Of a DNA stretch of 48,476 nt, positions 21,499-44,914 are shown one piece after another. Made by a program: the position numbers and the translations under genes. Source of the DNA: a virus; IMG/VR virus record IMGVR_UViG_3300027839_000918, positions 1-48,476 of that record; one strand, written 5' to 3'. The notes beneath the pieces were generated by a model. It was not told the DNA's origin. It made no database searches and saw nothing but the letters and a program-made list of their open reading frames with translations. The first letter of the stretch is position 1; every line of letters begins with the position of its first letter.

Positions 21499-23262
21499 GT
21501 GAAAATTGCAATCGTCGGTGAATCGCCTTGCAATCCGTCAGGATTTGGCCAGCAGGTTAGGATGCTCGTAGATGGTTTTTCTAGGCATGGTCACAATGTT
21601 TCGTGCGTGTCGGTTGCTTGGACGGACGAAACCTTAGACCATATCGATGAGTGGCGATTACCCAACATTCGTGATTTGGACAAAGTTGATGCGGCATTAT
21701 CTTTAATCAATCCCGATGTAGTAATTTGTTTTTGGCATACATCCGGCGTACAGGATTTTACATCGCTTAAATATCCCCCCGGTAATTGTTTAGTTTTTTA
21801 CTGGCTACCGTGGGAAGGCAGCACACTACCACCCGATAGCGAAGATTATTTTAAGCGCGTTGAGTCGGGGCGCATGGTTCATCTTTCAAACTTTGCGCAT
21901 GAGCTATGGGTTAATCACGTACAAACTAGCGAGGTTATACCGCACGGGGTAGACCCTAAAATCTTTTCACCTGATTACGCTACAAATCCTCTTGTTCAGC
22001 GCCAACTTTTAGTATCCAAATGGCGCGAAAAATTAAATGCACCTATCGATATCAACGATATAATTATTTTAAGTGTGGACCGAAACATATGGCATAAAAG
22101 GTGGGACGCCTCTTTTGACTTTATAAAAAAGTTACAAACAAAAACAGAAAAAAGAATCCGTTTTATTGCGCACACCAAAAAAATAGAAAAGGGTGTAAAA
22201 CCTGTTGATGGCTACGATTTACCCGCACTTGAAAAGACGTATGGATTAGATAAGGGAACTGTAATTTATACCAATTTTGATTGGATGCGGGGTTTACCCC
22301 GATCCGATATGGCAGACCTTTATCGAGTTGCTGATTTAAGAATTTCAATGTCACAAGGCGAGGGTTTTGGAATCCCCACAATTGAAGCGTCTATGTGTGG
22401 ATGCTTACAGATTGTAAACAATACAACTACGATGCCCGAACTATTCCCCGAGGGTAGCCCATGCCTTGCTGCTCCTGCAATGTCGGAATCGAAACGAGGT
22501 GTTTTGTATCAAGTACCTAATGTAAACGCGATGGTAGGCCGCGCTCATAGATTATTATTTAAAGCTACGGATAAGGTTAGGTCTCAAATAGTTCATTCCA
22601 ATTATAAACACGCACTTGCACATTTTACATCTGAAAAGATGGTATCCGCATGGTTGAAATTGATAGATACTAATTCAAATTATCCCGATTCAAACCGCTG
22701 GTATAGATTCCGTGACGGGTACGAAACAAATCATCACGCTGAGCGCGACAATTACCATATGGCGCAGGTGCTAACTAAGTTTGGAGACGATTCTAAAGTT
22801 TTAGAATTAGGATCATTTACGGGTAAATTTATTGAGTCCTGTATTTCAAGTGGCTTGTTTGTACACGGAATTGAACCAGATGTTGCCGCGTTTGAATTAA
22901 GCAGCAATAAATCAAAACTACTTTCTCGCAATATTTCATTTTTGGACGAATGGCCCGAAACTGATATAATTGTGGCAACCGATTTTTTAACTCTGTATCC
23001 TACAAACAAAGCGAAAGAAATTTTGGAGCTAGCCGCTTCTCGGGGTAAGTGGATCGTAATACGAAATAAGCCTCTCTATCGGAAAGGTAAAATTACGTAC
23101 GACTTAAAGTGGGCAGATAAGTTTTTAGAGGGGCTAGGTTCTGGCCGCAGATATGATTTAGAAAAGGTTATCTGTTCGCGATGGTTCAAAGAATTTTCGC
23201 ACGAAATTTGGCAAACGAAAGAGAGTTGGGAAGACGTACTCATTCCCCCAGGATTTGAATAA
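21499..23262 (+). CDS. Glycosyltransferase (GT4-like) fused to a SAM methyltransferase-like domain
   Basis: 587 residues, from a GTG start with GGAG about 11 nt upstream. Residues 1 to about 390 are a GT-B glycosyltransferase: MKIAIVGESPCNPSGFGQQVRMLVDGF at the N-terminus, IPHGVDPKIF in the middle, and MSQGEGFGIPTIEASMCG, the E-x7-E type donor site of GT4. Residues about 400-587 contain SAM-binding motif I-like VLELGSFTGKFIESC followed by VHGIEPD, and an ATDFL segment, as in class I methyltransferases. The fusion suggests sequential addition and methylation of a sugar. It lies between tail protein genes. Confidence 0.8.
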   Translation: MKIAIVGESPCNPSGFGQQVRMLVDGFSRHGHNVSCVSVAWTDETLDHIDEWRLPNIRDLDKVDAALSLINPDVVICFWHTSGVQDFTSLKYPPGNCLVFYWLPWEGSTLPPDSEDYFKRVESGRMVHLSNFAHELWVNHVQTSEVIPHGVDPKIFSPDYATNPLVQRQLLVSKWREKLNAPIDINDIIILSVDRNIWHKRWDASFDFIKKLQTKTEKRIRFIAHTKKIEKGVKPVDGYDLPALEKTYGLDKGTVIYTNFDWMRGLPRSDMADLYRVADLRISMSQGEGFGIPTIEASMCGCLQIVNNTTTMPELFPEGSPCLAAPAMSESKRGVLYQVPNVNAMVGRAHRLLFKATDKVRSQIVHSNYKHALAHFTSEKMVSAWLKLIDTNSNYPDSNRWYRFRDGYETNHHAERDNYHMAQVLTKFGDDSKVLELGSFTGKFIESCISSGLFVHGIEPDVAAFELSSNKSKLLSRNISFLDEWPETDIIVATDFLTLYPTNKAKEILELAASRGKWIVIRNKPLYRKGKITYDLKWADKFLEGLGSGRRYDLEKVICSRWFKEFSHEIWQTKESWEDVLIPPGFE

Positions 23263-34074: not shown

Positions 34075-34465
34075 ACCTAAATCAACGGTGGCGAGGAAAA
34101 AAACAACCTCACCGAAACGACAAACATCTAAGGATCGAAAATTGGTGCCCGCGCAAATTGTGGTGTCAAAAATGTATAAAGATCGGGGGATTGTAACCCA
34201 AGAGGAAGGGGGCATCACTGAAAATATAAACATCGCACCTTTGGTACCCGATACCCCGGTTTGCAGCGTGGAGTATGCTTCGCAAATGACCGTTAATCTT
34301 GGGAACTTTGAATCGGTACAATGTCGGGTAGGTGTGACTCTGCCTGCATACCTAGAAGAAGCAGAGGAGGCATTTCAAGTGGCTCAAAGTTTTGTAGACA
34401 ACAGATTAACGCGGGTTGTAAACGAGATAAAAGACTATAGAGAAAAAGCGCGGGGGGCAGAATGA
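34061..34465 (+). CDS. Conserved hypothetical phage protein
   Basis: 134 residues from the ATG at 34061 with GGAG about 10 nt upstream. A basic Lys/Thr-rich N-terminus (about 30 residues) leads to a domain with MTVNLGNFESVQCRVGVTLPAYLEEAEEAFQVAQSFVDNRL, a pattern I recall from phage replication and recombination modules without an assigned function. It overlaps the helicase end and the recA-like start. Confidence 0.55.
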   Translation: MKKAKPKSTVARKKTTSPKRQTSKDRKLVPAQIVVSKMYKDRGIVTQEEGGITENINIAPLVPDTPVCSVEYASQMTVNLGNFESVQCRVGVTLPAYLEEAEEAFQVAQSFVDNRLTRVVNEIKDYREKARGAE

Positions 34466-35538
34466 CCGTCTCCAGAAAAGTTTCTGACTTTATCGCCAAC
34501 GTAAATAAAACCTACGAAAGCACCATAGTTGAAGTAGGGGGAAAATTTGAAGCGTTGAATATTTCAAAATTTAGCAGCGGCATCTTGTCCCTTGATTGTG
34601 CGCTAGGTGGTGGGTGGCCTTATGGCCGGATTGGGATAATTGCCGGGATGGAAAGTACCGGAAAAACATTGACGGCAATAAAAGCTATGGCCGAGGTTCA
34701 AAAGTACGACCACGACACAAAATTACATAAAGATTTTGTAGACCCCAAAAAGTTTACACCGGGTAGCGCATTTTTTATCGATGTTGAAGGTTCGTTTGAT
34801 CCAGTGTGGGCAGCCGCAAATGGGTTTGATGACACCCACCACGTAGTCGCACGCCCTGAATACAGCGAGCAAGCAATAGATTTTGCAACTTCGGCTATTG
34901 AAGAAGGTTGCTTCGATTTAATCGTAGTTGATAGTATAGCCGCGCTGGCTCCCACAAAAGAACTCGAATCATCATCGGAAGATTGGCAAATGGGTTTAAG
35001 CGCCCGGCTTGTAAATAAAGCGATGAGGAAGTGGGTGGGGAAGCTGAACAAAGCGTCCACGATGTATGGCAGCGCACCTCTCGTTTTATGTCTCAATCAA
35101 TTCCGAATTAACATCGGGCAAATGTACGGCGACCCCCGAGTGTTACCGGGGGGGAAAGGCCAAAGGTTTGCTGCTTCTATCATTCTGTATATGAAATCGC
35201 CCAATTATCAAGATTCAAAAGAAAAAGAATTGTCGCAAGTAAAATTATCGGGAGTAGTTGAAAAAAACAAAGTTGCAATTCCGAATCAAAATTACACGTT
35301 TGGTTTGTATTTGAAGGATGAGGAATTGGCATCGATTGGCGATATCGACAATTTAAAACAAATGCAATCGTTAGGAAAAAAATACGGTTTAATTGTAGTG
35401 GAAGGTGGGAAAGTGAAATTTGGCGAACATACATTTAAAACACAAAAAGCACTTATGGAAAAAATAGGTACCGAACCAGATTTATATCGTTCAATGTGGC
35501 GATCAATTGTAAAAGCGGCCACCGGGAGTATCATATAA
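34462..35538 (+). CDS. RecA/UvsX-like recombinase
   Basis: 358 residues; ATGA overlap with the preceding gene. Walker A GMESTGKT at residues 62-69, FFIDVEGSFDPVWA, Walker B FDLIVVDSIAALAP, and APLVLCLNQFRINIGQMYGDPRVLPGGKGQRFAAS matching the RecA L1/L2 region. Length is close to RecA (about 350). It should form strand-exchange filaments in phage recombination and repair. Confidence 0.85.
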   Translation: MTVSRKVSDFIANVNKTYESTIVEVGGKFEALNISKFSSGILSLDCALGGGWPYGRIGIIAGMESTGKTLTAIKAMAEVQKYDHDTKLHKDFVDPKKFTPGSAFFIDVEGSFDPVWAAANGFDDTHHVVARPEYSEQAIDFATSAIEEGCFDLIVVDSIAALAPTKELESSSEDWQMGLSARLVNKAMRKWVGKLNKASTMYGSAPLVLCLNQFRINIGQMYGDPRVLPGGKGQRFAASIILYMKSPNYQDSKEKELSQVKLSGVVEKNKVAIPNQNYTFGLYLKDEELASIGDIDNLKQMQSLGKKYGLIVVEGGKVKFGEHTFKTQKALMEKIGTEPDLYRSMWRSIVKAATGSII

Positions 35539-36281
35539 TGGCTTACCCACGATTAACTATTGCCCTATCGACTTATGCAACTAATGTTTATGTCGCCAGT
35601 CGATTGCTCGAGTGCATTCGCTCGTTAGAAGCAAGCGGCTTTCCGGGCAGGATTATAGTGGTAGATGACGGATCGAAAGAAAGGCGAAGGGTACGCACAC
35701 TTACAGCCTCATCGGAGCATTCCACCGAACCCGCCAGAACCATGCCGGTTGAATTGTATCAACGAAGTGAAAACGGGGGCATAGCTCGGTGCAAAAATAG
35801 CTGCCTCAAACTTATCGAGGAGGAACCCTACGAAATTGGATTTCTAGCTAATGATGATTTGATTTTTTTTCGTGATTGGTGGGTACCTTATGTGGATGCA
35901 ATACGGATTACAAAGCACCCCCATTTTTGCTGGTCAGATCATACAAAGGGAACGGCTGCATTTAAATTAAATGAATGTGTGGTGTATAAGACGCGCCAAT
36001 TGGATGGTCATTTGATGACGTTTACCCCTCAAGTTATTCAAAAGGTTGGAGGATTTCAGGTGTGCGATTCTAAATGGGGATGGTCACACAAACCGTGGAC
36101 AGATCGAATCAACAGAAAATTCTTTCCGTCAATCAAAAAAGGTCACGGGTTAGATGTGGAAGGTTCTAACAAGGTGGTTTGTTTGCAGCATTCGCCTTCG
36201 GCTATAACTCCCCAAGAAAAAGCAGCCGGACGAAAAGTTAAAATCTTGGAGGAAAAAATGTATGTACCGTTGGAGGAATAA
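35538..36281 (+). CDS. Glycosyltransferase, GT2-like
   Basis: 247 residues from the ATG at 35538, overlapping the recA-like stop by one base. GT2 signatures are present: RLTIALSTYATNVYVASRLLECIRSL, GRIIVVDDGSKERR, ENGGIARCKNSCL and IGFLANDDLIFFRDW (D-D-L as the metal-binding motif). It sits away from the tail glycosyltransferases, inside the recombination module. Acceptor unknown. Confidence 0.8.
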   Translation: MAYPRLTIALSTYATNVYVASRLLECIRSLEASGFPGRIIVVDDGSKERRRVRTLTASSEHSTEPARTMPVELYQRSENGGIARCKNSCLKLIEEEPYEIGFLANDDLIFFRDWWVPYVDAIRITKHPHFCWSDHTKGTAAFKLNECVVYKTRQLDGHLMTFTPQVIQKVGGFQVCDSKWGWSHKPWTDRINRKFFPSIKKGHGLDVEGSNKVVCLQHSPSAITPQEKAAGRKVKILEEKMYVPLEE

Positions 36282-36283
36282 AC

Positions 36284-36649
36284 ATGGCAGCCGGGGACAA
36301 AAAACCTACTGCGCCCCAACTGGGGAATAAAAAGCATTCTTTGAAGTCGAGAACCCTAGCAAGTGAAAAAGCAAGTTCCAAAGAATTAGGGGGGAAGGTG
36401 CAGCCAGCCAGCGGTGCGGGGAAGGCACATAAAGGGGATATAAAGTTGGAACATTTTCTAATCGACAAGAAAGAAACTTCCGCGCAATCTATTTTGGTTC
36501 ACGGAAAAGACCTTACAAAAATAACCAGAGAAGCAGACGGGGAAGGCCGGACACCTGCCTTGCTAATTCAGCTTGAAGGCGTGCCGGCAACTGTTAGCAA
36601 CCAATGGGTGCTTTTACCTATCGCGAAATTTGCGGAGCTATTCAAATGA
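36284..36649 (+). CDS. Hypothetical protein with basic N-terminus
   Basis: 121 residues. The first about 55 residues are Lys, Ala, Ser and Gly-rich and likely disordered; the rest (LEHFLIDKKETSAQSILVHGKDLTKI ... LIQLEGVPATVSNQWVLLPIAKFAELFK) is a small folded part. Its stop overlaps the start of the nuclease gene (ATGA). No family recognised. Confidence 0.5.
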   Translation: MAAGDKKPTAPQLGNKKHSLKSRTLASEKASSKELGGKVQPASGAGKAHKGDIKLEHFLIDKKETSAQSILVHGKDLTKITREADGEGRTPALLIQLEGVPATVSNQWVLLPIAKFAELFK

Positions 36650-37659
36650 CTATATCGAAACTTTTGCATGACATGGATGAAACGCGGAAAAAAGAAAAAG
36701 ACCCTGCACGCTACAAGCATTTGACCAGCGCGGTAAAGTCTTGGATGAAAGCGTGGCCGGCGCAATCAACTTATACGGATGTTTTGCGAGCAAGCCAACT
36801 TTACTTTTTATGCCCCCGAGAATTTGTTTTAAATTATTGGCAACCTAAAGATAATCGTGACTTCAACTACAAATCTTATTTGATGATGACCACGGGAACA
36901 CACCTGCACCATTACATACAAAATTATGTTTTAGGTCCGATGGGTGTGCTGTGGGGCAACTGGGTTTTAACACACAAAAAGCATACGCAAACAGGATTCC
37001 ACCCTGCCCCAAAAAAAGCACTACAGACCATCTGTAAACAAGGTAATTTACCGTGGGCATATGAAGAACTCGATTTTTATGACGAAGGGTATCGCATCGC
37101 TGGGCATATCGACGGTCAACTAGATTTGGCGCGTATCGATTGGTTGCATCATAACTCGGATAAGATGAAAGAAAATCCCGAAGCAGCGTTGCGGGAAATG
37201 AAGAAAATTCCTACCGATGAACGGAACCTAATCAATCTTGAAATAAAAACGTGCGGTTCTTGGGTGTTTGAAAATCTTGTAGACTCAAAGTCAATTCCCG
37301 AGTATTATAAAATGCAAGCCGAAATATATCAGCACGCAACCGGAGTACACAAAACCGCGTTTTGGTACATAAATCGGGACACGATGGACAGCAAGATTAT
37401 TTTGTATGATTACAGCGGGAATTGGTGGAAAGACGCAACTCGCAAGGCAAAAATCGTATGGCAATCAATACGGGATGAGACGTTGCCTATATCGGGTATG
37501 GCGTGCCACACACCGAAGGATAAACGCGCTAAGGATTGTGCGTTTCGTACACCATGTTTTGATGAAATGGACTTCTCCGAATATGTCAGAAAAGGGAAAG
37601 AACAAGCCGAATCGGAGGGACGAAAACTTCTCGATCTTTCCCGCCACACGTTCGATTAA
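36646..37659 (+). CDS. Cas4/RecB-like PD-(D/E)xK nuclease with probable Fe-S cluster
   Basis: 337 residues; ATG overlaps the previous stop, GGAG about 9 nt upstream. Core motifs: HH in GTHLHHYIQ, D in AGHIDGQLDL, E-x-K in INLEIKTC, and the Q-x3-Y type motif in YYKMQAEIYQ. One Cys in the N-terminal part (LCPREF, C56) and three at the end (C287, C298, C304) could bind a 4Fe-4S cluster as in Cas4 and AddB. There is no cas1 or cas2 gene in the window, so a role in phage recombination or DNA end processing is more likely than CRISPR adaptation. Confidence 0.75.
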   Translation: MTISKLLHDMDETRKKEKDPARYKHLTSAVKSWMKAWPAQSTYTDVLRASQLYFLCPREFVLNYWQPKDNRDFNYKSYLMMTTGTHLHHYIQNYVLGPMGVLWGNWVLTHKKHTQTGFHPAPKKALQTICKQGNLPWAYEELDFYDEGYRIAGHIDGQLDLARIDWLHHNSDKMKENPEAALREMKKIPTDERNLINLEIKTCGSWVFENLVDSKSIPEYYKMQAEIYQHATGVHKTAFWYINRDTMDSKIILYDYSGNWWKDATRKAKIVWQSIRDETLPISGMACHTPKDKRAKDCAFRTPCFDEMDFSEYVRKGKEQAESEGRKLLDLSRHTFD

Positions 37660-37888
37660 CGTAAGCGTAGATCACAATATAAGCATCACAAATTTAAAGG
37701 CGGGTTTGGCATATCATTTTTCTCTCGAGAATCAGCAGTGCAGCGAAGGCATTTACAAATCACGGAGTAGGATTAAAATTGATCGCGACGAATGGTTACT
37801 AAAACTTTCGGATGGAACTTTAATTTTAGAAAGCCAGATTATCGCCATTCGCTGTATTGTATTCCACCAAATGCCAAAAAATGAGTGA
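37583..37888 (+). CDS. Hypothetical protein between nuclease and resolvase genes
   Basis: 101 residues from the ATG at 37583, overlapping the nuclease gene by 77 nt. No good binding site is visible, so the start is uncertain. The part after the nuclease stop (ISITNLKAGLAYHFSL ... RDEWLLKLSDGTLILESQIIAI) has normal protein character and fills the only gap before the resolvase start, so I keep it as a gene. Confidence 0.4.
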   Translation: MSEKGKNKPNRRDENFSIFPATRSINVSVDHNISITNLKAGLAYHFSLENQQCSEGIYKSRSRIKIDRDEWLLKLSDGTLILESQIIAIRCIVFHQMPKNE

Positions 37889-38336
37889 CCCCAACTGCTA
37901 CCCTGAGTATGAGGTGTCGCGTACTTTACTTTTGTCTGCGAATGTAAAACCAGAGCCTAAGCAAAGCACCCGCTTTACTTTGTCGGGACATGCGTACACC
38001 GATCCTAAGAAGAAAAAGTATTTGCAGAAATTAGTCCAAGAATTTTTGCGGAAGTTAGATGACAACTTCGCGCCCTTCGAGGGTCAGTTACGGGTGATGG
38101 TAGTTTATACTTTCCCGTGGCGCAAATCAGACGCTAAGGTTGCGCGAAATCAATCTTGGGCATATATGAACAAGCGCCCCGATGTTGATAATCTTTTCAA
38201 GCCAGTGGGGGACGCTTTACAAACTGCCGGAATTATCAAGGATGATGGTCAAATTGTAGAGGCGCTAGCCCGTAAAATTAGGGCCGAATCCCCCGGTATT
38301 TATGTGAGAATTGAGCAGCTAGTGGAACTTATTTAG
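37881..38336 (+). CDS. Holliday junction resolvase, RusA-like
   Basis: 151 residues from the ATG at 37881. It has the family core NKRPDVDNLFKPVGDALQTAGIIKDDGQIVEA, where the Asp residues bind the metal, preceded by VNVKPEPKQSTRF-type and VMVVYTFPW strands. It would cut four-way junctions made during replication and RecA-driven recombination. It is the last gene of the module; a weak terminator and a promoter follow. Confidence 0.85.
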   Translation: MSDPNCYPEYEVSRTLLLSANVKPEPKQSTRFTLSGHAYTDPKKKKYLQKLVQEFLRKLDDNFAPFEGQLRVMVVYTFPWRKSDAKVARNQSWAYMNKRPDVDNLFKPVGDALQTAGIIKDDGQIVEALARKIRAESPGIYVRIEQLVELI

Positions 38337-38512: not shown

Positions 38513-39472
38513 ATGGCGAAGGAAAAATCAATGGCGAAAAGAAAACGAAAAACAGCAACCGAAATTATAGAACCACTGGGCGGGCTATCGATGACCAGCG
38601 ACAAGCTAGTTGAAGTTAGCGGTGTCTGCCTTGACGTTTGGGATGGTTCTGATTCAACCTTTTTACCCATGCTAAAAAAAGATATGTCTGCTAGCGACCG
38701 CAAAAAAGCGGTGCGGGGAATCACTAAGCAGGCGTGTTTACTCGCTGATAAACTTTACGCGGTGATGGGTGAGACTCTGTACGAAATCCGTGAAAATTCT
38801 TACTGGAAAAATTGGACGTATGAAAGCGTCGATGGCTCCGCCGGTGTTAAAATCAAGTTTAAATCTTTTGAAGAATACTTGGAGAAGGAGTGCGAGGTAA
38901 AACGGCGCACTGCTTATTACTATATTAAAGTCTACGAAAAACTTATCGTTGAATTGGGAATACCTCCCCACATCCTTCGGACTGTGGAGTGGTCGAAGGC
39001 CAAAGAATTAGTCCCCTACATGGACAAAGACAACTGGAAAGATTTAATCAAAATTGCGAAGGATAAAACTGTCCGGGGGTTGCGCACATACCTTGCCGAT
39101 TTGGAAGGTGGCGGGGCATTAAAGAGCAAAGCTATCCACACTGATTTAATCAAGCGCTTGAATTTTAATTTAAGTGAAGAACAGCACGAGAACATCTTGC
39201 TCGCTTTTAAGATTGCTGCTAAGACGGCAGAAAGCAGTTCACAAGGAAATCTTTTGGATTTAATCTGCACCTCTTACATTGCAGAATCGCCAGACGATTT
39301 GGATGGCACGGATGGTTTGTTGGTTCAATTAGACCAGTTGGTGCGATCTGTTGAGCGTAACTTCGGTGTAAAATTAGAACTGGTAGAGGGAGGCTCATCT
39401 AAACCGGAATTGATTGGGGCCGGGGTTGGAGAGGGTGGTATAGAAGAATTTTTAGATGAGGAAGAAGTGTAA
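38513..39472 (+). CDS. Possible DNA-binding regulator (DUF3102-like)
   Basis: 319 residues, GGAG about 10 nt before the ATG. Basic N-terminus, then a helical region with ADKLYAVMGETLYEIRENSYW ... FKSFEEYLEKECEVKRRTAYYYIKVYEKLIVELGIPPHILRTVEWSKAKELVPYM, which looks like a helix-turn-helix (R-R-T-A-Y-Y-Y-I-K) and recalls DUF3102/phage ParB-like proteins. The C-terminus is acidic. It stands alone as a single-gene unit with its own promoter, two dyads upstream and a strong terminator downstream, which suggests a regulated, perhaps self-regulating, protein. The family assignment is tentative. Confidence 0.55.
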   Translation: MAKEKSMAKRKRKTATEIIEPLGGLSMTSDKLVEVSGVCLDVWDGSDSTFLPMLKKDMSASDRKKAVRGITKQACLLADKLYAVMGETLYEIRENSYWKNWTYESVDGSAGVKIKFKSFEEYLEKECEVKRRTAYYYIKVYEKLIVELGIPPHILRTVEWSKAKELVPYMDKDNWKDLIKIAKDKTVRGLRTYLADLEGGGALKSKAIHTDLIKRLNFNLSEEQHENILLAFKIAAKTAESSSQGNLLDLICTSYIAESPDDLDGTDGLLVQLDQLVRSVERNFGVKLELVEGGSSKPELIGAGVGEGGIEEFLDEEEV

Positions 39473-39483
39473 CGATCCTCCCC

Positions 39484-39535
39484 GTAGCGTGGGGGTTCGG
39501 TTTATGTGTTTTCCCGTCCCCCGCGTTACTTTTTT
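39484..39535 (+). terminator. Strong intrinsic terminator
   Basis: A 12-bp stem, GTAGCGTGGGGG (39484-39495) with CCCCCGCGTTAC (39518-39529), two G-U pairs, a 22-nt loop and six T. The next start codon is 11 nt past the T run. Confidence 0.85.
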
Positions 39536-39546
39536 ACTTGCAAACT

Positions 39547-40014
39547 ATGTTTGAAAAACAACTTGATGAATTCTATGACTTGCTATCGTCTCCAATTTAT
39601 TTGTACGTTCGCAAAAACTCAGGCAGATATTTTGTAGACAAAATAACAAAACGAGAAGATCGATTTGAGAGGCACCGATATTTGATCGAAGGAAATCAAT
39701 GTTCGTGTCTATCGTGGATGAAAGTGGGAAGGTGTAAACACTTAGAATGGCTGCAAGGAAATTTTGATCGACTAAATGGTGTGCCCGCAGCTACCGCCCT
39801 AGCCGCACTAAATGATCTGGTGCATCGAAGTACAAAGTTGTTTCCCAAGTCGCACAAAAAATGGTGGGTTGGCGCCGATCAAATTTCTGATATAGTAGCA
39901 GCTATCCAGTTAGAAACTATTGAACCTTTGGGATTTTCAAGACTCGTTACTATACAAACTATTAGAAAGTATAAATTAGCTTTTGTTTTTACCTATGAAG
40001 AAGGAGGACACTAG
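39547..40014 (+). CDS. SWIM zinc-finger protein
   Basis: 155 residues from the ATG at 39547; no Shine-Dalgarno is visible in the 11 nt after the terminator, and no other Met is close, so the start is unusual. Residues 52-65 form C-x-C-x8-C-x-H (CSCLSWMKVGRCKH), the SWIM zinc finger, preceded by the usual strand region (YLYVRKNSGRYFVDKITKREDRFERHRYLIEG). The rest is a small alpha/beta domain. SWIM proteins bind DNA or proteins and occur with MoxR-type ATPases and vWA proteins (for example YehQ with YehL and YehP in E. coli, from memory). The next two genes encode exactly such partners. Confidence 0.75.
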   Translation: MFEKQLDEFYDLLSSPIYLYVRKNSGRYFVDKITKREDRFERHRYLIEGNQCSCLSWMKVGRCKHLEWLQGNFDRLNGVPAATALAALNDLVHRSTKLFPKSHKKWWVGADQISDIVAAIQLETIEPLGFSRLVTIQTIRKYKLAFVFTYEEGGH

Positions 40015-40016
40015 AC

Positions 40017-41561
40017 ATGGCAGTTAAATCAGAATCGGCACACGTACCTATCACACTCGGAATCGTTACCTTAGTGGGTACCCCCGACAACGCACGATCC
40101 ATCGTAAACTTTTTTAACATTCAGAATTGCAAAGTTAAAAATTCGGCTACGCTTGATCTAAGTGATAACAGTTGCACTTGCGCAGTCGCTAAGTTTCGCA
40201 AGGTGAAAGGTGAATCGGATGGTAGTGGGTGCCTTCACCAATCGTTGATAAGTAAACCCACCGTGTTCCTTGGACACCACCCGGTGGGCGGTGGCGGGAT
40301 ACGGGGAATGTCTGAAACTGAGTTAGCTACTTGTGAAACACAAGCTATTAGCCGCATGGCCTTTGAAGATGTTTTTGTTGTACTACCTCAAAATGTAGGC
40401 GGTATTTTAGACCCTCACCTACCTGATTGTCACGCTAGCGATCTTTGCAAATATTTATCAGGCACCTCTAATAAGTTATCCGAACTTTATTCGGGTGACT
40501 CAGTGGATTCAACTGAGGTTCACACTATAAATCCGCGCCGGCTTTATCAGGAACTAAACAAAGCTGACTCTTTGCGTGATCCTAGTTTAACTTCAAAATC
40601 GGTAATTAACGCTGGCATGAAAGTAGATGCAATAGTTGCCACCGAGGGGGAAAGTAGATACGATGAGGAACTAACCAGCGGGGATTATTTGCACGATGCC
40701 CCCGCCACGGAAAAAGATTTGGGGGCTACTCCGTGGAAAATATGCAAACGTCCTAACCCTGCTTCCTTCTATGTCCAGCAGGGCGTATGGGAGCAGGGAC
40801 TCCGCGCACTCCATAGGGGCAAAAATGTACTGCTGACTGGTCCCTCGGGATGCGGCAAAACAGAATTAGCGCACCTGCTGGCTAAGTCGTTGGGACTCCC
40901 CACCGAGAGCGTAAACATGGGTGCAACTACCGAACCCCGAGACGTTTTAATAGGTACGGTAGAATTTGATCCTAAGCAGGGCACACACCTTTGTAGGTCA
41001 AGGTTTGCTCGTTTTGTGGGTAATCCATCCGGCATGGTTTTACTTGACGAAATTACACGAGGTGGCCGGGACGCAAACAACATATTACTTCCACTGCTTG
41101 ACCGCCAAGCGTACATTGCAATTGATGAGGAAGAAGGTGGTGCAATAGTTCGTCGAGGTGACAATATGTCCATTGTGGCCACTGCTAACATTGGTATGGA
41201 ATACACTGGGACTGAAGCGCTAGACATTGCTTTGCAGCAACGATTTCAGGTGGTGATCGATTTGTATTTTCCACCCATCGAATGGGAATCAAAAGTGCTA
41301 CAAGGTAGAACCGGAATTGACGCTACATCTGCAAATGTGTTGTGTACAATTGCCAACCAGCAACGAGTGCTGCAAGATGCTGGTGATTTTGTTGCTAATG
41401 TTTCAACCAGAATGTTATTAGAAGCGTCTGAATTAGTTGTCGATGGGTTTGATTTACTTACCGCTTGTCAGTATTCTATACTAAACAATTTTAGTAACGA
41501 TGGTGATGAGGCAAGCGAGCGGTCAAGGATTTTGCAAATCATACAAAAACACGTAGGCTAA
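40017..41561 (+). CDS. MoxR/CobS-type AAA+ ATPase with N-terminal SWIM-like motif
   Basis: 514 residues. Residues 53-74 contain C-x-C-x16-C-x-H (C53, C55, C72, H74), matching the SWIM consensus, so both this and the preceding protein may carry SWIM fingers. The AAA+ core has Walker A GPSGCGKT (275-282), GATTEPRDVLIG, Walker B MVLLDEI (D344, E345), a sensor 1 region SIVATANIG and the later arginine-finger-like region LQQRFQVVIDLYFPP. This order is that of MoxR/CobS-type ATPases, which remodel partner proteins together with vWA proteins. It is translationally close to both neighbours. Confidence 0.8.
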   Translation: MAVKSESAHVPITLGIVTLVGTPDNARSIVNFFNIQNCKVKNSATLDLSDNSCTCAVAKFRKVKGESDGSGCLHQSLISKPTVFLGHHPVGGGGIRGMSETELATCETQAISRMAFEDVFVVLPQNVGGILDPHLPDCHASDLCKYLSGTSNKLSELYSGDSVDSTEVHTINPRRLYQELNKADSLRDPSLTSKSVINAGMKVDAIVATEGESRYDEELTSGDYLHDAPATEKDLGATPWKICKRPNPASFYVQQGVWEQGLRALHRGKNVLLTGPSGCGKTELAHLLAKSLGLPTESVNMGATTEPRDVLIGTVEFDPKQGTHLCRSRFARFVGNPSGMVLLDEITRGGRDANNILLPLLDRQAYIAIDEEEGGAIVRRGDNMSIVATANIGMEYTGTEALDIALQQRFQVVIDLYFPPIEWESKVLQGRTGIDATSANVLCTIANQQRVLQDAGDFVANVSTRMLLEASELVVDGFDLLTACQYSILNNFSNDGDEASERSRILQIIQKHVG

Positions 41562-41593
41562 AATAGATAAACCTTTAAAGGGAGGATAAACAC

Positions 41594-43804
41594 ATGGCAT
41601 GGAATTGGTTTGAACCTATCGATTGGGACGGGGACGGTAGCGATGATTATTACGATTCCTCTATGCACCAACTCGCAACCAACGACTCTATGATGCGCGG
41701 CTCCCGCTTATCTTCGATGTGGGGCCAATATTCGCCCTCGCAAGATCGGGAGACAGCAGAGGCAACCGCGCAGGATATGTTGCGCATTAGAAATGCGGTT
41801 CGTAGTTTGTTAAAAGTACATGGTTTGCCTACCGGCACTTCGATTGAACTAGCAACCATTGGTCAACAGGCTATGGGATGCTGTACCTTTAGGGACCAAG
41901 ACAATAAAGAGCGCCCACTAATTTTATTAGATAAATCTATCTACGATTCTTGTGATGGAGAATATCAAAAAGCGTTAGATATTTATTGTGGAATCGGTTT
42001 ACATGAGGCTAGCCATGCAAATCACACGCGACTACTTTTTGATCTTCAGGATTTAGCAAATAGCGAACGGAAAGAGGACTGGTGTCACGACGAGTTTACC
42101 CGCCCTTTCAATGTAGGCTTAGCCGGTCGTGTCGCAATTTTTGCTGGACTCTTTGAAGATGAGCGAATAGAAAATCTTATACGGAAAGAGTCCCCCGGTT
42201 TTGTCGCATACGTTCAAGCGGCAAAGCGCGCCATCTTTGAAACAAAATCTTTTGGGGAGGCGTTGGGTCTGTGGGACACGGCAAATGATATGGATCGTTT
42301 GACTATGCTTGCCTTTGCATTCATTCGATGCCCCCATGTCGTCAAGGACAAGCAGAAAACATTTTCCCTAATCGATGGCAAGGTACCGTGGGACGATTTT
42401 AGAACCATGTTTGCATCGGTCCCTGCTTCAGAGTCGCAAGTGGTAGTTGCAGCCCGAAAATTAGAGTGCTATTTTGATAAAGCACGGACCCTATACAGTG
42501 ATGCAATTAAAGAGACTTTAGGCGAGACTGCGGAGACACGTAATGATGCGGAGGAAAATATAAAAAGTCTTTCGGAGGATGAGCAAGAACGTCTTAAAAG
42601 GTTGTTGGCTCAATTCGATGCCGATGCCGCCGATAAAGACTATCACCACCAATTGAATGAACTGCAAGATCAAGCAGAGGGCATTCATAAGGAAATTAGC
42701 GGCGATTCGAAAAGTCAAACACCGGAGCAAATTGCCGCCGCGATTAAAGATGACCAATTAAACGATAAAGATGACAGTAAAATTGAAAAGCTGAAAGCTA
42801 ACGAGGAACTTGTTCACGAACTACGAAAGGGGCGATTTAGTTTACTCGATTTACAGGAAGCATTGCGCCAAGCGTCTACGGTTACGGATTGCCTTAATGT
42901 GGCGGAAACGCGGGAAGTCCATCGCAACGAGGAGCAGCGCATAACTTTTCTTGAAGATTGGGAATGGGGTGACATACTACCACGTAAAAATGTTGTAATA
43001 CATCCTAAACCCGACCGTAGCAAATATAAGGTTTACAAAGATTCGGTAGCAGACGAGATACGCCGGATGCAAAACATTTTTCGGTTACGGTTAGGGACTC
43101 GGAAGCACCGCGAAACAGAACGTAAATCGGGGCGTATTCATCGACGCCGGTTAGCTCGCAGCAAATCTACAGATCGATTGTTTTATCGCAAGACGGAAAA
43201 ACAAGATCAAGGGGTGGCCCTATGCTTACTTCTAGACGAATCGGGGAGTATGGGGCGTGCCGAGCGTTTGGGGATGCCGTCGAGTGACAGAGGCCGCAAG
43301 GCAGCCGCCACGTTGCAAATTGCCGTTCTAATGGCCGAAGCATTGAAAGGTGTTCCCGGTGTTGAGTTGGAAGTGTATTCGTACTCGAGTTGCGGTGCTT
43401 CCCACCAGGATAATCAAGTAAAATACCTGTACGGAAAATGCAATCCGGATGCCGCCAGTATTGCAAACTATACTGAGGACGGCATGGAAAATTATGATCA
43501 CCTTGCAATTAAAACTGCGGTGAACTTATTCAAAACAAATACGGTAAACAAACATCGTATGATGATAGTTATTTCTGACGGCCAACCGTGGGGCAACAAT
43601 TACGGCGGGGATGATGCCAACGAAGCGACTAAAAAGGAAGCGTTGGCAGCCGAGAAAGCAGGTGTCAAAATCTTCCACATAGCTATTGAGAATTTCAAAA
43701 ATGATAAAATGTTTAAGCACTCGATTAAGTTTACCGACATACCTGAGTTGATGAACCAGATGCGCCGAATGATAACCCGACTGGTTACGGAGGCTACCGA
43801 ATAA
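41594..43804 (+). CDS. CobT-like vWA protein with N-terminal HExxH metallopeptidase-like motif
   Basis: 736 residues, GGGAGG 10 nt before the ATG. Residues 137-141 are H-E-A-S-H followed by ANHTRLL, and E188/E190/E193 in FEDERIENLI could be the third zinc ligand, so a gluzincin-like peptidase fold is likely. The centre is an acidic, helical linker rich in Asp, Glu and Lys. The C-terminal vWA domain has an intact MIDAS: D548-x-S-x-S (LLDESGSMG), a Thr/Asp region (YTEDGMENYD) and VISDGQPWG. It pairs with the AAA+ gene as CobT with CobS or vWA with MoxR. Confidence 0.8.
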   Translation: MAWNWFEPIDWDGDGSDDYYDSSMHQLATNDSMMRGSRLSSMWGQYSPSQDRETAEATAQDMLRIRNAVRSLLKVHGLPTGTSIELATIGQQAMGCCTFRDQDNKERPLILLDKSIYDSCDGEYQKALDIYCGIGLHEASHANHTRLLFDLQDLANSERKEDWCHDEFTRPFNVGLAGRVAIFAGLFEDERIENLIRKESPGFVAYVQAAKRAIFETKSFGEALGLWDTANDMDRLTMLAFAFIRCPHVVKDKQKTFSLIDGKVPWDDFRTMFASVPASESQVVVAARKLECYFDKARTLYSDAIKETLGETAETRNDAEENIKSLSEDEQERLKRLLAQFDADAADKDYHHQLNELQDQAEGIHKEISGDSKSQTPEQIAAAIKDDQLNDKDDSKIEKLKANEELVHELRKGRFSLLDLQEALRQASTVTDCLNVAETREVHRNEEQRITFLEDWEWGDILPRKNVVIHPKPDRSKYKVYKDSVADEIRRMQNIFRLRLGTRKHRETERKSGRIHRRRLARSKSTDRLFYRKTEKQDQGVALCLLLDESGSMGRAERLGMPSSDRGRKAAATLQIAVLMAEALKGVPGVELEVYSYSSCGASHQDNQVKYLYGKCNPDAASIANYTEDGMENYDHLAIKTAVNLFKTNTVNKHRMMIVISDGQPWGNNYGGDDANEATKKEALAAEKAGVKIFHIAIENFKNDKMFKHSIKFTDIPELMNQMRRMITRLVTEATE

Positions 43805-43805
43805 C

Positions 43806-43997
43806 GTGCCACGAGGCGACCACGTATCGATTTGGTTTGCAAACGAAGATCGATGGTTGTTTGAAACCATCGAAGCGTTACAAGATAGTTTCTTAGACGC
43901 GGGATTGCCTATAAGTAAATCGCAACTTATGGTGGCAATCATAAAATGTGGGATTACAGAATATGCCAAGCAAACGAAAGATAAACTTTCGGAATAA
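43806..43997 (+). CDS. Small RHH-like protein, tandem paralog 1
   Basis: 63 residues from a GTG start one base after the preceding stop. VSIWFANEDRWLFETIEAL ... PISKSQLMVAIIKCGITEY follows a strand-helix-helix pattern like ribbon-helix-helix DNA-binding proteins. It resembles the next gene's product. Probably a transcription factor-like or partner protein; not proven. Confidence 0.5.
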   Translation: MPRGDHVSIWFANEDRWLFETIEALQDSFLDAGLPISKSQLMVAIIKCGITEYAKQTKDKLSE

Positions 43998-44169
43998 AGA
44001 TGAGTGGTTGGTTACGCTTATCGATGGTATTGTAAGCACCAAGAAAAAGTTGGGGTTTAAAACATCGTTTAGTTACGAGTTGGTACGATTAGCGAAGAAA
44101 GGTTTGATTGACAGCGCAGAGGGTGCGGCTATTGATCGAAAAGTGATAGATGATATTGCCAAAGGCTGA
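43963..44169 (+). CDS. Small RHH-like protein, tandem paralog 2
   Basis: 68 residues from the ATG at 43963, overlapping paralog 1 by 35 nt. INFRNKDEWLVTLIDGIVSTKKKLGFKTSFSYELVRLAKKGLIDS aligns with the neighbour's VSIWFANEDRWLFETIEALQ ... SQLMVAIIKCGITEY. Such overlapping tandem copies suggest a heterodimer or duplicate regulators. Confidence 0.5.
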   Translation: MPSKRKINFRNKDEWLVTLIDGIVSTKKKLGFKTSFSYELVRLAKKGLIDSAEGAAIDRKVIDDIAKG

Positions 44170-44419
44170 TCTAAATGATTTTGTAGCGTTTGTTAAACGT
44201 GGGTTTGGCGTGTCGGCTACGCTTCACGATTCCCCAATGCAATCGGAATACGCTCGATTTATGTTAGGGGGCAGATTGTTTATTGTGTCGGCCTATGATG
44301 GCTCTGAAAACTTGTTAGAAATTTTGAGTGGTGACAAAAACGGTTTACAGGAACTTGGGAAAACTTGGATGGCCTACATCTACGACACCGAAAAAGAAGA
44401 TGACGATATAGAACTTTGA
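44150..44419 (+). CDS. Hypothetical protein
   Basis: 89 residues, ATG overlapping the previous gene by 20 nt with a weak binding site. The sequence (LNDFVAFVKRGFGVSATLHD, ARFMLGGRLFIVSAYDGSENLLEIL) suggests a small alpha/beta fold with an acidic tail. No family recognised. Confidence 0.5.
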   Translation: MILPKADLNDFVAFVKRGFGVSATLHDSPMQSEYARFMLGGRLFIVSAYDGSENLLEILSGDKNGLQELGKTWMAYIYDTEKEDDDIEL

Positions 44420-44437
44420 AAGGCCGGAGCGTTAAAC

Positions 44438-44914
44438 ATGAAATCGAAACATATGGGGAATAACCCAGAAGATATGCAAGACATGATCGATGAGTGGAAG
44501 GACATTCAACGGCGCAAATTTCAGGTTGAAGAAGCAGAAAGTCGATTAACACAAAAATTGGAATCGTATGTTGGAGATCAATTAGCGCCTTCGTTTATTT
44601 TCACCGGCATCACTTCGGAGTTGGTACTTAAACCAAGATTAAATGTGACGTATAAAAAAGAGCGAGGTGAAATTCATCCGCTAGAGAAACTACAAACAGA
44701 ATTTCCCGATCTTGCATCGATGGTCCGTGCCAGCTATAGTGAATCCGGTTCAAAGATAAAACTTTTGCTTTTAAAGTACCACGAACCCAACCACGGCAAT
44801 CTCTCAGCTAAGAACACCGCGTTAGCAGAAGAATTGATACAGCACCGAAAAGTTAAAAAAGGTAAGCCTACCATCAGTATTCAGGATGCAAAAAATGACC
44901 CCCCAAGTATTTAG
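44438..44914 (+). CDS. Hypothetical protein
   Basis: 158 residues, GGAG upstream. An N-terminal helix (MIDEWKDIQRRKFQVEEAESRLTQKLESYVG) is followed by LVLKPRLNVTYKKERGEIHPLEKLQTEFPDLASMVRASYSESGSKIKLLL. The pattern is vaguely like proteins that accompany phage recombination systems, but I cannot assign a family. Confidence 0.5.
   Translation: MKSKHMGNNPEDMQDMIDEWKDIQRRKFQVEEAESRLTQKLESYVGDQLAPSFIFTGITSELVLKPRLNVTYKKERGEIHPLEKLQTEFPDLASMVRASYSESGSKIKLLLLKYHEPNHGNLSAKNTALAEELIQHRKVKKGKPTISIQDAKNDPPSI

Follow-up and report, generated by a model that had tools for sequence, protein, structure and literature searches.

MoxR-vWA pairs are widespread and few have known substrates. In group 2.2 jumbo phages a MoxR AAA protein is paired with a vWA protein that has an N-terminal metallopeptidase domain, e.g. 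ASV44729.1/ASV44728.2, and a role in virion assembly was proposed for the pair (Iyer et al. 2021, PMC7824862). The proposal is based on the requirement for a MoxR-vWA pair in tail assembly of Acidianus two-tailed virus (PMC7824862). In bacteria, AAA-vWA ternary systems are conflict modules (PMC7159879). NorQ/NorD and CbbQ/CbbO are dedicated to NO reductase or rubisco, and E. coli yehL, yehP and yehQ are annotated as MoxR ATPase, VWA and SWIM genes, respectively. The label "cobalamin/porphyrin biosynthesis" is attached to much phage AAA/vWA sequence.

The window analyzed here covers all 48,476 bases of an IMG/VR virus record and has genes for head, tape-measure, helicase, primase and DNA polymerase, with the structural genes at about 3.5–17.5 kb. 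As the initial annotation had stated, three consecutive genes encode a SWIM protein, an AAA+ protein with a SWIM motif of its own and a vWA protein with an HExxH motif. All three open reading frames are intact, on the + strand and arranged head to tail. A second IMG/VR contig has an almost identical copy. The features of the trio are as follows:

39547..40014, + strand: small SWIM zinc-finger protein, 155 aa, ATG start (a TTG start at 39538 is possible)
39700..39741, + strand: SWIM motif C52-S-C54-x8-C63-K-H65, from sequence and orthologue conservation
40017..41561, + strand: MoxR/NorQ-class AAA+ ATPase, 514 aa, with N-terminal SWIM motif
40173..40238, + strand: SWIM motif of the AAA protein, C53-T-C55-x16-C72-L-H74
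40839..40862, + strand: Walker A GPSGCGKT, residues 275–282 of the AAA protein
41594..43804, + strand: vWA protein with N-terminal zincin-like domain, 736 aa (VWA E-value 3.7e-5)
41735..42277, + strand: predicted zincin-like core, residues 48–228
42002..42016, + strand: H137-E138-A-S-H141
42155..42160, + strand: E188-D189, candidate third zinc ligand and its neighbour
43235..43249, + strand: MIDAS DxSxS motif, DESGS, residues 548–552 (D548–S552)

Like the jumbo-phage pair, the locus has a MoxR-class motor gene adjoining a vWA gene whose product bears a metallopeptidase-like domain at its N-terminus. It is set apart by the SWIM fingers, which the published description of that pair does not mention, by its occurrence in phage records of about 33–105 kb, and by its position, which follows RecA-like, exonuclease and RusA genes and is not tied to virion genes. 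Phages commonly carry an AAA gene paired with a vWA-metallopeptidase gene, and the 2021 account of jumbo phages (PMC7824862) already includes such a pair, so that novelty does not lie in the peptidase. The SWIM pair, together with the conserved recombination-gene setting, appears to be a new variation on a known phage module; no published description of SWIM fingers with a phage MoxR-vWA pair was found in the literature covered, which leaves most subscription papers outside.

The SWIM fingers and the AAA+ motor

Divergent relatives of the trio were gathered by alignment-based scans of viral contigs. The phage records compared are approximately 33–105 kb in length, and some of the trio records are fragments. 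The order SWIM-AAA-vWA is kept in nine phages (the window, L007–L012, L235 and L236), each with an orthologue of the small SWIM gene immediately upstream of the AAA gene. In L013 and L052 the AAA protein bears SWIM and the vWA gene is present, but no small SWIM gene adjoins them. Motif conservation in divergent orthologues of all three proteins exceeds that expected by chance.

Across nine sequences of the small SWIM protein, only C52, C54, C63 and H65 are invariant; the sequences display 16–28% identity to the window protein. Pfam SWIM matches three of the nine small proteins (best E-value 6.6e-4), and the window protein scores 13.9 bits, which is below the cut-off of 19.6 bits. Thus assignment of the window protein to SWIM rests on conservation within the family and not on a single Pfam match. 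A tblastn search of named phages with the small protein gave only one weak match.

The AAA gene starts 2 nt past the SWIM stop codon and has a GGAGG ribosome-binding sequence upstream. Its product matches AAA_5 (E-value 3.6e-17), CbbQ_C (2.6e-12) and phrog_249 (1.7e-22), and displays the features of the MoxR class, i.e. the AAA_5 domain, a CbbQ/NorQ-type C-terminus, Walker A and B motifs and sensor residues. The putative zinc ligands C53, C55, C72 and H74, whose conservation had been set in advance as the point on which the initial annotation could fail, are invariant in 11/11 phage orthologues. The doubled SWIM fingers that it described are therefore real and conserved, in the small protein as well as in the AAA protein. 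A tree built from 145 AAA domains unites the SWIM-bearing AAA proteins in one clade, interrupted only by L169 from Planctomycetota; it was made by a quick method and its deep support is moderate.

The solved relatives of the motor are midasin, CbbQ, NorQ and CobS. NorQ/NorD and CbbQ/CbbO thus include the closest solved AAA relatives besides midasin, and the nearest solved relative of the vWA domain is NorD (E-value 2e-5). Unlike the trio, these systems lack SWIM. The E. coli Yeh set had been named earlier as a bacterial counterpart. Its annotation is confirmed and it likewise has MoxR, vWA and SWIM genes together, but it is only an analogue: YehP lacks HExxH, YehL lacks SWIM, yehM intervenes as a fourth gene, and the phage SWIM profile does not match YehQ, a protein with two SWIM motifs.

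The zincin-like domain and MIDAS of the vWA protein

The N-terminal region of the vWA protein displays an HExxH motif with a downstream Glu, as noted initially. G133, H137, E138, H141, E188 and D189 are invariant across 72 homologues, a set that was selected for carrying HExxH. The better, unbiased figure is therefore that from loci retrieved via the AAA gene alone, where an N-terminal HExxH is present in 46/49 full-length vWA proteins. This frequency and the published jumbo-phage pair (PMC7824862) contradict the earlier view that a built-in peptidase motif is unusual in phages.

An AlphaFold2 model of residues 1–331 (pLDDT 80.8) has E188 in a later helix than HExxH. The predicted topology, i.e. 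a helix, three strands, the HExxH helix and the later E188 helix, is the zincin arrangement, and the core alone is modelled with pLDDT 82.4 and pTM 0.78, a confidence between moderate and high. Structure prediction had been named beforehand as a way to expose HEASH as part of a non-metallopeptidase helix, and the model does not indicate such a helix. Foldseek comparison of the core with the PDB places zincins at five of the six top ranks, none with an E-value below 0.001. The leading ranks, none significant, are SPRTN (6mdx/6mdw, probability 0.77–0.82), selecase (4qhi), a zincin-like protein (3e11) and lethal factor (1pwv); the longer N-terminal model also has no significant match among solved zincins. 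Among viral models, other phage vWA/CobT-annotated proteins are matched with probability near 1 and SprT-like proteins with up to 0.94. Sequence libraries gave no family for the domain: no Pfam peptidase family was matched, PADLOC and NCBIfam were negative, and a PDB sequence profile search gave no relevant relative. Motif and modelled topology fit a zincin, and the domain is a candidate active metallopeptidase.

With SPRTN/SprT, the best-probability zincin matches of the core, the trio would also share the combination of a zinc finger and a zincin near DNA. However, no sequence homology is seen, and SPRTN has no AAA/vWA partner.

Loss of HExxH was observed in L014, in L026, which carries QNAALA at the site, and in a CobT-like cyanophage-type branch (L015–L057); MIDAS and the AAA partner are retained. 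In these relatives the putative active site has been lost naturally. A separate vWA family from Clostridia and phages (L171 6399–8684, L247, L249 and L253) displays HELGH and EDGYIE. An adjoining AAA gene of the trio type was not detected in this family, and a Walker A open reading frame is located upstream.

The AAA gene and its adjacent MIDAS-bearing vWA partner are a MoxR-vWA pair. The MIDAS had been described as intact. This is correct for DxSxS and the later Asp (D662), but the classical Thr is absent and its position is replaced by N633-x-D635, with N633 and D635 invariant in nine vWA orthologues. The N-x-D, the DxSxS and the CobT-type vWA, together with the CobS-like label of phrog_249, are likenesses to CobS/CobT, including those of phages. 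The trio differs from them by the HExxH domain, the SWIM fingers and the lack of CobN, and the window vWA has no match to the TIGR01651 CobT equivalog. CobN is absent from 12/12 trio records, some of which are fragments and for all of which a host CobN could serve. A self-contained cobaltochelatase is thus not supported for those records, and the HExxH domain and missing CobN make the cobalamin/porphyrin label doubtful for much of the family.

A related alternative is a chaperone for insertion of a metal cofactor, where HExxH/E would be metal-binding or structural and the pair would load metal into a phage or host enzyme, as in CobS/CobT or NorQ/NorD. This is rather unlikely, though still a serious alternative. 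It has in its favour the solved relatives, which include NorQ/NorD and CobS, the PHROG label "porphyrin biosynthesis", and the cyanophage-type branch, which keeps the pair despite loss of HExxH. Outside of that branch, however, HExxH, the Glu and the Asp are invariant beyond what the fold would require. No metalloenzyme gene was recognized adjoining the trio, and the CobN result above also speaks against it.

Recombination-gene setting and a domain swap in Planctomycetota

Upstream and downstream of the trio the window has the following features:

34462..35538, + strand: RecA/UvsX-like recombinase, syntenic
36604..37659, + strand: Cas4/RecB-like exonuclease, syntenic
37857..38336, + strand: RusA-like Holliday junction resolvase, syntenic
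38513..39472, + strand: 319-aa protein, phrog_17202, DNA-binding-like and putatively DNA-binding, fourth cassette gene
39484..39537, + strand: hairpin followed by a U run, -25.9 kcal/mol, z -3.66, probable terminator or attenuator
43806..44914, + strand: four small genes of 63, 73, 89 and 158 aa, conserved in several trio phages

Neighbourhoods of the clade were compared all-against-all, and synteny refers to most clade genomes with enough flank. The conserved + strand series is RecA-like gene, short gene, exonuclease, RusA, 319-aa gene, SWIM, AAA, vWA and small genes. The upstream genes were found in 8 (RecA-like), 8 (short gene), 9 (exonuclease), 7 (RusA) and 10 (319-aa) clade genomes; in L052 the AAA-vWA pair is located away from recombination genes. 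Minus-strand ortholog clusters in this comparison are antisense shadow open reading frames of the real genes and were disregarded. The 319-aa protein was assigned no family by Pfam, PADLOC or NCBIfam.

As the hairpin and its U run separate the SWIM gene from the 319-aa gene, the trio may be transcribed or regulated separately, i.e. it may not be co-transcribed with the recombination genes. The hairpin is incompletely listed by a simple terminator scan due to its long loop. Promoter matches here are at chance level.

Three Planctomycetota genomes have pairs of an AAA gene and an HExxH-vWA gene:

L268 7929–11531: pair in G250
L274 6015–9563: pair in G315
L169 4859–8381: pair in G011

In all three the N-terminus of the AAA protein is the middle domain of the 319-aa protein, which replaces SWIM, and the vWA partners retain HExxH and DESGS. 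The cellular version thus exchanges the presumptive SWIM targeting domain for a domain of the neighbouring phage gene. Such pairs are rare, with three found among several hundred Planctomycetota genomes searched. No phage genes were recognized in the sampled flanks, and those of G011 contain cellular genes. The L169 locus was considered as a prophage, but with flanking glycosyltransferase, GH57 and APH genes it is read as chromosomal. A Pup-ligase gene beside the pair in G250 was considered as a link to proteolysis and dropped, as it is not conserved in G315.

Fusion of a domain of the 319-aa gene to the AAA N-terminus links this gene to the motor. The strongest indication that the 319-aa protein may act together with the motor comes from this swap.

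These findings bear on the proposal that the pair acts in virion assembly as a chaperone/protease, remodelling and trimming structural proteins of the head or tail. This role was put forward for the same kind of pair by way of Acidianus two-tailed virus (PMC7824862). For the trio it is rather unlikely, though as serious an alternative as metal insertion: the SWIM-clade genes are located among recombination and not structural genes, related pairs are present in Planctomycetota chromosomes with no phage genes recognized in their flanks, and the pair of Bacteroides phage BS162P1 is near DNA polymerase.

Possible role in remodelling of protein assemblies

The recombination-gene cassette, the domain swap and the absence of CobN point to DNA or recombination complexes rather than to virion assembly or cobalt chelation. 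The reading preferred here, with a probability of roughly 40%, is that the trio forms a motor-driven protease which remodels protein assemblies at phage DNA, where the SWIM fingers and/or the 319-aa protein would provide targeting. The MoxR-class motor would form a complex with its cognate vWA co-chaperone. In one phage clade the motor itself carries a SWIM finger and a second is encoded by the small separate gene, and these and/or the 319-aa protein would bring the motor to DNA or recombinase assemblies. ATP hydrolysis would remodel the bound protein through contact with the vWA MIDAS, and the zincin domain would then clip it.

Points against this reading are that a SWIM domain may have a protein rather than DNA as its partner, that the hairpin may uncouple the trio from the recombination genes, that L052 has its pair away from these genes, and that the core matches no solved zincin significantly and no Pfam peptidase family. 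The SWIM protein SWS1/Shu2 acts with RAD51 paralogues in eukaryotes (PMC6316741), a parallel that fits the proposed mechanism only as an analogy.

A more specific form is that the SWIM fingers recruit the ATP-driven protease to DNA, where it would strip or clip proteins from recombining phage DNA, whether filaments of the recombinase, nucleoid proteins of the host or crosslinked proteins. This form is unlikely, more so than virion assembly or metal insertion. If true, the trio would function like a motor-driven SPRTN, and a few Planctomycetota chromosomes would harbour relatives.

Least probable of the readings considered is a protease for host takeover or counter-defence, which would unfold and cleave a host protein. 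The bacterial conflict modules noted above (PMC7159879) are in line with it, as is the proposal that other phage zincins cut host proteins (PMC7824862). However, the trio is in operon position with core recombination genes and its order is preserved across divergent phages, whereas accessory genes are usually patchier. The PADLOC matches are to generic P-loops only, and no VMAP-type match was found among the cassette proteins in the general libraries used, a search that was not VMAP-specific. Virion assembly and defence had both been named initially as targets; the conserved synteny favours recombination or replication instead.

The trio is a genuine, conserved feature of greater extent than the initial annotation gave. 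In the SWIM clade a predicted protease site, two fingers with a putative targeting role and a conserved linkage to recombination genes occur together, and the question of the substrate is now testable.

Other open reading frames in the window were also observed. Directly 3′ of the trio, the small genes at 43806–43997 and 43948–44169 overlap and are conserved in the clade; they share one homology cluster and thus are apparently tandem relatives. Glycosyltransferase-like genes are located at 35496–36281, between the RecA-like and exonuclease genes, and at 21499–23262. At positions 125–2875 there is a 916-aa open reading frame whose residues ~410–460 are weakly acetyltransferase-like.
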